Shown here in pieces: positions 12,291 to 32,614 of a DNA stretch of 32,614 nt. The stretch's first letter is position 1. Every line of letters starts with the position of its first letter. Both the position numbers and the translations under genes were made by a program. The stretch is from positions 1 through 32,614 of the forward strand of contig JAFZZW010000063.1 in NCBI GenBank assembly GCA_017615615.1. The letters run 5' to 3'. Under the pieces are notes generated by a model. That model made no database searches. It saw only the letters and a list, made by a program, of their open reading frames with translations, and was not told the DNA's origin. Source of the DNA: Bacteroidales bacterium. GTDB lineage: Bacteria > Bacteroidota > Bacteroidia > Bacteroidales > UBA932.

Positions 12291-13328
12291 ATGTGGTCTA
12301 TTCTGGCGGTCTTTTCCGCCATACTTCTCGGGCTATATGATGTAGCCAAAAAGACAGCGCTTAAGAAGAACGGTGTTCTCACCGTTCTTCTTGTCGCGAC
12401 TGCCCTTTCCACTCTGTTCCTGGCGCCTTTTTTCCGGCTTGGTCCGGCTTCCGGATTCCTCCGTCTTGGGCTCAAGGCGGTGCTGGTGACAGCTTCGTGG
12501 ATAAGCGGTATGATCGGCCTCAAGATGCTGCCGCTGACTACCGTGAGTACCATCAAGGGGTCGCGCCCCGTGTTCGTCGTGCTGTTTTCCATCATCCTTT
12601 TCGGGGAGCATCTCAACTGGATGCAGTGGAGCGGTATAGCGCTGGCGCTGGTCGCCTTGTGGCTCCTCGGACGCACCAGCAGGGCCGACGGCACCGTGAA
12701 GGCGCGCCGTACGGGGTTCATCTGGATGGGGGTGTCGGTGGTCACCGGCGTCGCCAGCGCCCTTTACGACAAGCATATAATCGCCGGCCTCGATCCTCTC
12801 TTCGTCCAGTGCTGGACGAATCTGTTCATAACGGTCATCCTGGCGTTATGCGTTTGTGTTGAGCGGCTGTTTTCCGGAGCCTCTGTCTCAGGAACCTTCC
12901 GCTTCGCTTCATCCCTCCCATCTGCGATGGGCCCCTCCCGTTCACATGGCCACGGGCGGCCATGTTTTCCTGAGACAGAGGCTCCGGAAAACAGCCTGAC
13001 GACTGAGTTGGACAGTACTGCCACATTTTCCAGCAGCAATACTGGCGAAGACGCTAGCCAGGATGGGCGGGTAAAGCCGGTAAAGTTTCAATGGGACTGG
13101 ACTCTGGTTGTGGTGGCGGTGCTGATTACGGCGGCGGATATGCTGTATTTCTTTGCGCTGAAGCAGCCGGATGCGTTGCTTAGCGTGATTTCGGTCATCA
13201 GGCGAGGTTCCGTGCTTGTGACGTTCATATGCGGGGCGATCATTTTCAAGGAGGGCAACCTCCGCGCCAAGGGCCTCAACATGCTCCTCATGGCTGCTGG
13301 TATAGCGCTGCTGCTGATCGGGAGCTGA
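12291..13328 (+). CDS. EamA/DMT-family transporter carrying a palindromic insert
   Basis: 345 aa inner-membrane protein of the drug/metabolite transporter superfamily, longer than the usual about 300. N-terminal half: hydrophobic helices with LYDVAKKTALKKNG, the KMLPLTTVSTIKGSRPVFVV repeat motif and EHLNWMQWSGIALALVALWLL, typical of EamA repeat 1. Second half: ASALYDKHIIAGLDP, then helices ending in SVISVIRRGSVLVTFICGAIIFKEGN, typical of repeat 2. Residues about 192-236 are encoded by a 132-bp palindromic element (12865-12996), followed by a polar low-complexity stretch up to about residue 263. The insert lies between predicted membrane helices, so the fold may survive. Substrate unknown. It starts 3 bp after the macroglobulin stop. 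Confidence 0.88.
   Translation: MWSILAVFSAILLGLYDVAKKTALKKNGVLTVLLVATALSTLFLAPFFRLGPASGFLRLGLKAVLVTASWISGMIGLKMLPLTTVSTIKGSRPVFVVLFSIILFGEHLNWMQWSGIALALVALWLLGRTSRADGTVKARRTGFIWMGVSVVTGVASALYDKHIIAGLDPLFVQCWTNLFITVILALCVCVERLFSGASVSGTFRFASSLPSAMGPSRSHGHGRPCFPETEAPENSLTTELDSTATFSSSNTGEDASQDGRVKPVKFQWDWTLVVVAVLITAADMLYFFALKQPDALLSVISVIRRGSVLVTFICGAIIFKEGNLRAKGLNMLLMAAGIALLLIGS
12865..12996 (+). repeat. 132-bp palindromic element inside the DMT gene
   Basis: Two perfect 30-nt inverted arms (12865-12894 and 12967-12996) enclose a 72-nt core. The core carries CTTCCGCTTCGCT, CATCCCTCCCA, GGGCCCCTCCC and GGGCGGCCA, all shared with the copy at 32408-32527. The arms do not match the other copy's arms. 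Length is 44 codons exactly; no stop appears in the host frame, and the opposite strand is also open. This recalls the in-frame palindromic elements known from Rickettsia, but I know of no link. Confidence 0.9.
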
Positions 13329-13366
13329 TTGCTCACCCCTCTCGCGAAGACAACGTTGGGGCTCCT
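13328..13366. repeat. 39-bp direct repeat, left copy
   Basis: 38 of 39 bases match 14053-14091; the only difference is T13357 versus G14082. This copy begins at the last base of the DMT stop codon and ends inside the stop codon of the convergent DUF2442 gene. It contains a TCT-CGCGA-AGA mini-hairpin and a CCCC/GGGG pairing, but no T-run, so it is not an obvious terminator. Confidence 0.88.
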
Positions 13367-14052: not shown

Positions 14053-14091
14053 ATTGCTCACCCCTCTCGCGAAGACAACGTGGGGGCTCCT
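14053..14091. repeat. 39-bp direct repeat, right copy
   Basis: Same orientation as 13328-13366, one mismatch, 725 bp away. It lies 9 bp past the stop of the TPR-HTH gene and upstream of the DUF4160 promoter. Together the copies enclose exactly the two-gene unit and its promoter. Confidence 0.88.
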
Positions 14092-31286: not shown

Positions 31287-32614
31287 ATGGCACAGTACAT
31301 AGTCTCCGCCCGCAAATACCGTCCCGACTCCTTCGAAAGCCTCATCGGCCAGGACAACATAGCCCGCACCCTCAAGAATTCCATCCTTCGCGGGCAGCTT
31401 GCGCACGCATACCTGTTCTGCGGCCCCAGGGGGGTAGGCAAAACCAGTGCCGCCCGCATCTTCGCCAAAACCATCAACTGTGCCAACCCGGGTCCCGATA
31501 TGGAGCCCTGCGGCGAATGCGAGTCCTGCGTTTCTTTCCGCGAGGGCCGCTCCTACTGCATCCATGAACTGGACGCAGCGTCCAACAACGGCGTCGAGGA
31601 TATCAAGGCCCTGATGGAACAGGTCCAGATTCCCCCGCAGGTGGGCAAGTACAGCGTGTACATAATAGACGAGGTCCACATGCTCACGCAGTCGGCCTTC
31701 AACGCCTTCCTCAAAACGCTCGAGGAGCCGCCCGCACACGCCATATTCATCCTCGCCACCACCGAGAAGCACAAGATAATCCCCACCATCCTCAGCCGGT
31801 GCCAGACCTACGACTTCAATCGCATCAGCATACCCGACATAGTCCGCAATCTGCGCAGCATAGCGGGCAAGGAAGGCGTCAGCGTGGATGACGAATCGCT
31901 TCACGTAATTGCCCACAAGGCCGACGGCGCCATGCGCGACGCCCTCACCATATTCGACCAGACCGTCGCTTTCTGCGGCACGGACATCAAATACGAAGAC
32001 GTCATCCGCAACCTCGGCGTCCTTGATTACGAATACAGTTTCCGCCTTGTCGACGCGTTCCTCGGGAAGGATTACGGCACTGCGCTGCTGATTTTCGACG
32101 ATATCCTCTCCAAGGGGTTCAACGCCCTGCATTTCATTTCCTCCCTCGGAAGCCACCTGCGCGACCTGCTCGTCAGCCGCACGGGCGGTCTGGACGCCTT
32201 GCTGGACCTTCCCGCCTCTCTGCGGGAAAGATACCGCGAACAGGCCTCCCGCTGCAGCGTGAAGTTCCTCTACGATGCCCTGGGGATCGTTTCCCAGTGC
32301 GAGGCCGGTTACCGCGCCTCCACCAACCAGCGGCTCCACATCGAGTACGCCTTGATGAAGATCGCGTTCCTCGGCGGAGTGCCGGATACCGCTTCCGTCT
32401 CCACTTCGCAAGAGGCAGTTCCCGGATCTTCCGCTTCGCTCCATCCCTCCCACAGCCTCTCCGAGTCTGCGGGCCCCTCCCTTTCACGCGGCCAAGGGCG
32501 GCCACGGATCCAGGAACCGCCTCTTGCATCCGTTCCGCCGGAAGCTCCTTCCACTGCCGCCCCGAGTCCTTCTGCCCCTGTCATTTCGAGCGAAGGCCGA
32601 CAGGCCGGAGCCGG
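31287..32614 (+). CDS. dnaX: DNA polymerase III subunit gamma/tau, 3' end beyond window
   Basis: 442 complete codons visible, open at the edge. Clamp-loader ATPase that opens and loads the sliding clamp. Walker A GPRGVGKTSAA (about 45-55), zinc motif with C-x8-C-x2-C-x2-C (CANPGPDMEPCGECESC), Walker B IIDEVHML, sensor 1 ATTEKHKIIPTILSRC. Domain III extends to about residue 365 (YALMKIAFLGG). The following linker is Ser/Pro/Ala rich and holds two different repeats, 32408-32527 and 32577 onward, both in frame. The start is MAQYIVSARKYRPDSF, the family's normal N terminus. Confidence 0.95.
   Translation, partial: MAQYIVSARKYRPDSFESLIGQDNIARTLKNSILRGQLAHAYLFCGPRGVGKTSAARIFAKTINCANPGPDMEPCGECESCVSFREGRSYCIHELDAASNNGVEDIKALMEQVQIPPQVGKYSVYIIDEVHMLTQSAFNAFLKTLEEPPAHAIFILATTEKHKIIPTILSRCQTYDFNRISIPDIVRNLRSIAGKEGVSVDDESLHVIAHKADGAMRDALTIFDQTVAFCGTDIKYEDVIRNLGVLDYEYSFRLVDAFLGKDYGTALLIFDDILSKGFNALHFISSLGSHLRDLLVSRTGGLDALLDLPASLRERYREQASRCSVKFLYDALGIVSQCEAGYRASTNQRLHIEYALMKIAFLGGVPDTASVSTSQEAVPGSSASLHPSHSLSESAGPSLSRGQGRPRIQEPPLASVPPEAPSTAAPSPSAPVISSEGRQAGA
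32408..32527 (+). repeat. 120-bp palindromic element inside dnaX
   Basis: Arms 32408-32428 and 32507-32527 are complementary over 21 nt with two mismatches; the core is 78 nt. Core blocks CTTCCGCTTCGCT, CATCCCTCCCA, GGGCCCCTCCC and GGGCGGCCA match the DMT copy. Total length is 40 codons, no stop in frame. The spacer between CCCTCCCA and GGGCCCC is longer here, so the first core half is read in a different frame than in the DMT gene, while the second half is read in the same frame. Confidence 0.88.
32577..32614 (+). repeat. Second repeat family in the dnaX linker, cut by window end
   Basis: CTGTCATTTCGA followed by GCGAAG, matching the gene-sense start of the baiN repeat (881-929) but lacking the intervening CCGGA. 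Translated as PVISSEGRQAGA, the same VIS frame as in baiN. Its end is not visible. Confidence 0.5.

Follow-up and report, generated by a model that had tools for sequence, protein, structure and literature searches.

Dispersed palindromic elements such as REP, ERIC and RPE have been known for decades, and the movement of most of them is unexplained. In RPE the sequence, including that of the arms, is common to the whole family. MITEs are short, non-autonomous elements of many copies, with terminal inverted repeats common to the family. The attC sites of integrons are recognised by shape as folded single strands, and have variable sequence and self-complementary arms.

RPE measure about 150 bp and are dispersed in a genome, with close to half of the copies located in frame within genes (PMC10969869). 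They reportedly bear a CGTC tag, and a dedicated transposase is apparently lacking for CGTC repeats (PMC3733652). RPE are also described as losing repeat identity with time (PMC6649704). REPs are palindromes of 20-40 bp with GTAG, often near RAYT genes; the palindromes lie mostly between genes and in some cases within replication and repair genes. In nematomorph mitochondria, perfect inverted repeats lie in coding genes, both arms encode conserved protein sequence, and their identity is thought to be actively maintained (PMC6649704).

The window analysed here, 32,614 nt of Bacteroidales DNA, is one whole contig from the genome of a gut bacterium (1.93 Mb, 72% complete, 92 contigs). A preliminary description of it had claimed a palindromic element shared by two unrelated genes, a DMT transporter gene and dnaX. 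This was confirmed. The DMT copy is an inverted repeat of 30+72+30 nt at 12865-12996 within an EamA/DMT transporter gene, and the arms, described as perfect over 30 nt, were 100% complementary with 72 nt between them. Its parts were assigned as follows.

12291..13328, + strand: host gene, EamA/DMT transporter (PF00892, by family search)
12865..12894, + strand: left arm, 5' strand of helix P1, 30 of 30 nt complementary to 12967-12996
12897..12910, + strand: P2 motif TTCCGCTTCGCTTC, read from the sequence and alignments; in other copies the hairpin is variable or missing
12917..12931, + strand: P3 hairpin CCCAT...ATGGG, from alignments and covariation
12937..12941, + strand: pseudoknot strand 1, CCCGT, from the covariation test
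12945..12964, + strand: P4 hairpin CATGGCC-ACGGGC-GGCCATG, from folding and covariation
12952..12956, + strand: pseudoknot strand 2, ACGGG, inside the P4 loop, from the covariation test
12967..12996, + strand: right arm, 3' strand of P1, pairing with 12865-12894

The insert occupies about codons 192-235, between FITVILALCV and the WDWT segment that is conserved in element-free orthologues. A chance palindrome was rejected on the perfect 30-nt arms and on the folding energy (z = -9.60 as DNA and -9.55 as RNA), since 0 of 200 shuffled sequences was equally stable. A 39-nt direct repeat of 97% identity was also noticed, at 13328-13366 (the DMT stop codon) and 14053-14091, 725 bp apart.

The second copy in the window lies in dnaX.

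31287..32612, + strand: host gene dnaX (TIGR02397, by family search), running off the contig
32408..32428, + strand: left arm, pairing with 32507-32527 with two mismatches, by reading
32429..32506, + strand: core, from a blast match and a covariance-model match
32479..32483, + strand: pseudoknot strand 1, CCCTT, covaried, from reading and the covariation test
32494..32498, + strand: pseudoknot strand 2, AAGGG, covaried, from reading and the covariation test
32507..32527, + strand: right arm, by reading

The arms of 21 nt with two mismatches that had been claimed for this copy were seen on reading. Both copies were of whole codon numbers and stop-free, as had been stated, with 132 nt or 44 codons in the DMT gene and 120 nt or 40 codons in dnaX, and the frames were open. 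The two copies differed exactly at the pseudoknot, which is CCCGT/ACGGG in the DMT copy and CCCTT/AAGGG in the dnaX copy.

The element behaved like RPE but fitted the full definition of no family tested, and we class it as a variant of the dispersed palindromic elements. As in RPE, a dispersed palindrome was inserted in frame in unrelated genes: 25 of 119 copies were in long open frames and 94 between genes (ORFs were called mechanically, and duplicates and copies less than 700 nt from a locus end were left out). The DMT and dnaX hosts were confirmed by family search and the other intragenic hosts by reading. On the other hand, RPE belong to another phylum, and the present element had arms that are copy-specific and covary, along with a covarying pseudoknot, and it used both orientations and more than one reading frame on each strand. 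Among the 30 columns to the right of the core in 104 arms there was no conserved CGTC tag, and columns 7-29 carried at most 0.52 bit, in contrast to the family-wide arm sequence of RPE.

Like REP and BIME elements, it was also found in replication and repair genes, namely dnaX and a UvrD/PcrA-like helicase gene (the latter by reading). However, the two copies measured 132 and 120 nt instead of 20-40 bp, and no GTAG columns appeared in the tabulated part. The neighbourhood of RAYT genes was not seen either, with 0 matches in 30 Y1_Tnp loci and four carriers without a Y1_Tnp match. MITEs are likewise short, non-autonomous and of many copies, with terminal inverted repeats; in contrast to their conserved repeats, the arms here were mostly copy-specific in the main genus, and shared within lineages like G426 and G374 (G and L numbers denote genomes and loci). 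Compared with attC, the present element had a strongly conserved core and variable arms. It also differed from the coding palindromes of nematomorphs in having a mobile core in linkers and between genes. In the literature searched, the element was found under no name.

The core was met again in dnaX and turned up in about 35 positions across the genome. Blastn gave 44 rows in the element's own genome, two of which were the element's own arms matching each other, and the covariance model gave 35 matches. Many copies were located at contig ends, as repeats are in short-read assemblies; the assemblies look metagenomic, and the named relatives are MAGs. Among 163 copies collected from loci, the arm score was at least 20 in 68, and perfect arms of at least 20 nt were present in 34.

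With the covariance model at E<=0.001 and at most 100 candidates scored per genome, the element was matched in 20 of the 25 genomes sampled from the genus, was not matched in the other 5, and gave no matches in 16 genomes of other families. A wider model search over 295 genomes, with 13 candidates scored in each, added four genomes from other genera. The exact pattern was found in at least 116 stretches, of which three were labelled Candidatus Cryptobacteroides and the rest were gut or rumen MAGs of Bacteroidales, Bacteroidia or Bacteroidaceae. Over 393 genomes of the order an exact pattern matched five, namely the genome of the window and G374, G276, G426 and G456 of other genera, the four that the wider model search had added, and the reversed pattern used as a control matched none. 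It was present in 1 of 5 genomes of one genus (g30), and gave no match in G245 and G616 of the window's own genus. Such a patchy distribution resembles that of mobile DNA. Carriage by viruses was not supported, one pattern having 0 exact matches in viral_contigs.

The comparison with element-free orthologues was made at the DMT locus. A search of 250 genomes of the genus gave 130 with a match, and 30 loci of these were read. The covariance model was run on 8 of the 30 sites and confirmed seven carriers; the other 22 were judged by reading. The seven carried the element in the same linker, in the + orientation in three (G000, G010, G210) and reversed in four (G022, G126, G062, G120). In 21 of the 30 loci, a short element-free linker led from the helix to WDW, which showed that the DMT element is an insertion. 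One locus (L181) had a longer linker in which the covariance model found no match. In another (L178, of G168) the linker was occupied by a different repeat, made of two copies of TGTCATTCTGAGCGCAGCGAAGAATCT, which has the string GAGCGNAGCGAAG in common with the P2 motif of the element.

The preliminary description had named two outcomes that would speak against it, a lack of further copies in the genome and arms of ordinary conserved host sequence. Neither holds, since further genomic copies and element-free DMT orthologues were found, the latter ruling out ordinary host sequence.

Other genes were hit in several species as well, with differing frames or orientations: the dnaX tail (L050, L078) and the C-terminal linker of a UvrD/PcrA-like protein, named by reading (L027, L104, L137). 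Together, the intragenic copies used three frames of the + strand and two of the - strand. No target duplication was resolved, the empty sites compared being too diverged. At one locus (L149), GTTCCACGTGGAAC, which we take to resemble a parS site, adjoins the element on the right, and the aligned element-free region of L058 has the similar GTTCCATGTGGAAC.

It had been argued that a long stem is what is kept in the element. This was supported by the covariance model, in which all 14 arm pairs were changed on both sides, and related copies had paired changes. All four Watson-Crick pairs were present at 11 of the 14 arm positions. In one of two alignments (A4, 101 distinct copies aligned by the model), 91.7% of the pairs were standard against 66.5% after shuffling, 686 cells were changed on both sides against 183, and the covariation score of 0.529 fell to 0.122 on shuffling and did not exceed 0.081 on sliding; the alignment, being fitted to the model, leans towards it, and the slid and shuffled controls were far lower. 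In P3 the outer pairs were fixed, and the inner stem was variable and covaried among copies.

The loop-to-strand pseudoknot CCCNN:NNGGG, which was not part of the covariance model, was complementary in 168 of 175 parsed copies (from 185 distinct sequences, 10 being unparsable), whereas 10,000 permutations gave a mean of 118.8 and a maximum of 131. The paired dinucleotides were of six kinds (GT/AC 143, TC/GA 9, AT/AT 8, GC/GC 4, AC/GT 3 and TT/AA 1). Of the seven misses, six look like a wrong hairpin chosen and one is a real mismatch. The covarying pseudoknot is new relative to the preliminary description, and so are the spread beyond the genus and the nearness to gene ends.

We interpreted the family as a Bacteroidales dispersed palindromic element, a non-autonomous mobile hairpin that is probably selected as a folded single strand. 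Seen in the data are dispersal and insertion, covariation in the fold, common arms at unrelated loci of one genome and paired arm changes. The moving form, of roughly 130-190 bp, would be a folded single strand of RNA or DNA. In it, P1, made of both arms, would close a junction from which the P2, P3 and P4 hairpins branch, while the loop of P4 would pair back to the CTCCC strand to give the pseudoknot. Selection would act on this fold when the element moves. The arms of a new copy would be complementary at the start, either through fold-back synthesis of one on the other or because movement is restricted to copies that fold well, and they would decay neutrally after insertion. Insertions would survive in protein linkers and in short gaps between genes. 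The core is much the same in every copy, and the arms differ from copy to copy yet match each other, which suggests inheritance of the folded shape more than of the sequence.

Among 188 gene ends facing the element, 111 were 3' ends, at a median of 32 nt from the core, and 77 were 5' starts, at a median of 40 nt; with a median of 32 nt, the arm often begins beside the stop codon. Convergent sites numbered 29 and divergent sites 12. The + strand was the sense strand in 55 of 78 co-directional or intragenic copies (55 vs 23, p=0.0004), a bias that the mobile hairpin does not predict. The replication-strand test was not decisive (mean GC skew 0.0073 in the core orientation, t = 1.89, 146 loci). 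In three comparisons of orthologous flanks (L162 vs L099, L154 vs L051 and L104 vs L027) the core was inverted, which suggests either inversion between the arms or a separate insertion.

Nearness to 3' ends and the sense bias are both expected of a structured RNA in 3' UTRs, such as a terminator, an mRNA stabiliser or a protein-binding site, spread and kept for helping the upstream gene. Such a benefit has been proposed for REP elements. A covarying pseudoknot is also typical of RNA, and in four species copies have persisted at one orthologous site, which follows a gene that reads as rnfC-like. This explanation nevertheless appeared unlikely. The 25 intragenic copies, in frames of both strands, speak against it, and so do the arms, which mostly differed among the G000 copies. 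A selected RNA helix should also favour G.U. Instead, P1 had 2191 Watson-Crick cells of 2389, with 38 G.T and 62 A.C, and the helices outside one P3 pair had 71 G.T and 78 A.C, so that G.U was not favoured over A.C. Seven stretches searched against Rfam 15 gave nothing above the gathering score at the element, with sub-threshold matches only, which spoke against a known Rfam RNA.

P1 alone leans towards the G-rich strand (62 vs 38, p=0.02). The G-rich strand was dropped as a candidate for the folded strand, the bias coming mainly from one P3 pair.

The arms were then compared between copies. Among the 119 copies, 63 pairs were alike at 17 or more of 25 positions, some of these pairs being orthologous. 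Near-identical arms occurred at unrelated loci of one genome, with identity at 24 of 25 positions in L161/L167 and 22 of 25 in L109/L144; the flanks of these two pairs, and of L065/L151, scored no better than random flanks. In G374 and G426, arms were common to several loci, and in the four-species orthologous set after the rnfC-like gene the arms were kept with some mismatches. In G000, the arms were mostly unlike one another, with few similar pairs, the closest being L002/L003 (21 of 25). Unrelated loci of one genome can share arms that differ by paired changes, which indicated that the arms usually travel with the element.

Paired positions were counted in three groups of related copies; the pairs were picked by similarity and have members in common, so that the changes are not independent events. 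In eight same-genome (paralogue) pairs, 181 positions held 20 doubly compensated changes, 12 one-sided changes and 2 further double changes. Chance would give roughly 1.4 compensated doubles in this group, as judged from the rate of change per side. The 20 consisted of 11 transitions and 9 transversions. In five pairs of similar arms with unrelated flanks from different genomes, 102 positions had 3 compensated, 5 one-sided and 2 other double changes. The ten orthologue pairs had 21 compensated, 27 one-sided and 6 other double changes in 228 positions. The 27 one-sided against 21 compensated changes suggested that arm copying is not continuous in place. Single pair-breaking changes in the three groups led to G.T in 8 cases and to A.C in 10, and therefore G.U steps were not favoured. 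A first count of the arm pairs as a whole had given 43 compensated, 46 one-sided and 9 other double changes; the later count omits L168/L141 (no change in 20 positions), L115/L113 and L053/L044, and adds two G374 pairs.

Paired changes without a wobble preference would also be expected of old palindromic relics. In such relics, hairpin-templated repair (quasipalindrome correction) would keep the two arms identical where they stand, with neither present mobility nor selection on the fold. Such conversion is suggested as one possibility for the nematomorph mitochondrial repeats by the authors of that report (PMC6649704). For the present family we regard it as quite improbable, given that the pseudoknot partners covaried though they are not an inverted-repeat arm pair, that orthologous copies gathered one-sided changes, and that recent spread is indicated in G276, where near-identical copies have the same upstream unit.

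The proposal that the arms are made afresh at each insertion did not stand as a rule, unrelated loci having arms in common. In one copy (L031, the same as L176, of G010), the stem does run outward for 21 nt that encode GVCILVR, a segment conserved in element-free orthologues, and 20 of the 21 nt are mirrored on the opposite side. This showed that palindromes can grow into host DNA. It was the sole mid-contig case tied to conserved host codons.

A general origin of the arms from host DNA, in which a template switch at each insertion copies the flank into an inverted repeat round a fixed core, would account for this copy and for the dissimilar arms of most G000 copies, but is very unlikely in view of the common arms at unrelated loci of one genome, the weak consensus of the 104 aligned arms, and the possibly artefactual nature of the longest case (L143), which runs to the end of a contig.

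The arms of L143 are 124 nt long with one mismatch; on the left they are formed by the end of an ORF resembling an aldose epimerase (by reading), and the far arm stops where the contig does. It was rejected as proof of host copying as a possible fold-back assembly artefact. L153 (136 nt) was likewise not used; it consists of the ends of genes for two related proteins, one of them at the end of a contig.

For the mobile hairpin, arm-from-arm copying during movement may explain arms that are perfect yet divergent, and selection alone may do so as well. A tentative and rather doubtful extension is that the element rewrites its own arms at each move by fold-back synthesis, comparable to rolling-hairpin replication, with the pseudoknotted core as the conserved recognition unit and a type of mobilising activity that has so far no known link to palindromic repeats. 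If so, the stem would be inherited as self-complementarity and not as sequence. The internal loops of the long stems in G000 remain non-complementary (by reading), which speaks against unlimited arm-to-arm copying. A similar asymmetric internal loop was seen in the long stems of L002, L003, L012 and L013 (G000) and L050 (G010), with approximately CTCCACTGCG on the left and GCATCCGTTCC on the right, between the inner and outer variable arms.

The family offers many copies with covarying arms, a testable pseudoknot and both orientations at orthologous sites, which lets one ask directly whether selection can act on a bacterial element in the form of a folded single strand. It also provides a Bacteroidales case in which a transporter and a replication protein are each lengthened by 40-odd codons through such elements.

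The enzyme that moves the element would be encoded elsewhere or supplied by host repair. The preliminary description had expected a protein encoded elsewhere. This agreed with the lack of any recurring mobile-type ORF recognised beside the copies; the enzyme itself did not turn up in the searches. No transposase was recognised by reading in the 22 largest ORF clusters near the copies, the largest of which (9 loci) reads as ABC transporters, and a transposase nearby was rejected on these grounds.

Some carriers had no match to the two enzyme types that come to mind first. The element model gave 0 matches in 30 Y1_Tnp loci, 13 of them from the genus. Of nine carriers searched, four that are 96-99% complete (G276, G374, G426, G456) had no Y1_Tnp match even at E<=0.01, and five of the genus (G000, G010, G015, G018, G022) had weak matches. 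RAYT was rejected as the mobiliser on these two results. A divergent protein family (L249-L252, L258, L259), with members about 300 aa long that match Y1_Tnp weakly, occurred in carriers and non-carriers of the genus alike. Reverse transcriptase (RVT_1) was matched in 2 of the 9 carriers searched. It was rejected as the mobiliser on the lack of a match in the other seven, of which G000 is 72% complete and six are at least 96% complete.

No enlarged copy with an ORF was seen in a search with split halves of the pattern, which gave 136 whole, 23 right-only and 12 left-only hits; the right-only hits were on reading mostly whole copies with variant left parts. In G276, five copies had a common upstream unit that reads as an intrinsic-terminator hairpin, and therefore the moving unit can exceed the hairpin. 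Several loci of G426 (L265, L269, L274, L278, L282) had two elements inverted to each other and separated by no more than about 110 nt. The arms of these paired elements were common to several loci, like those of a dimer moving together.
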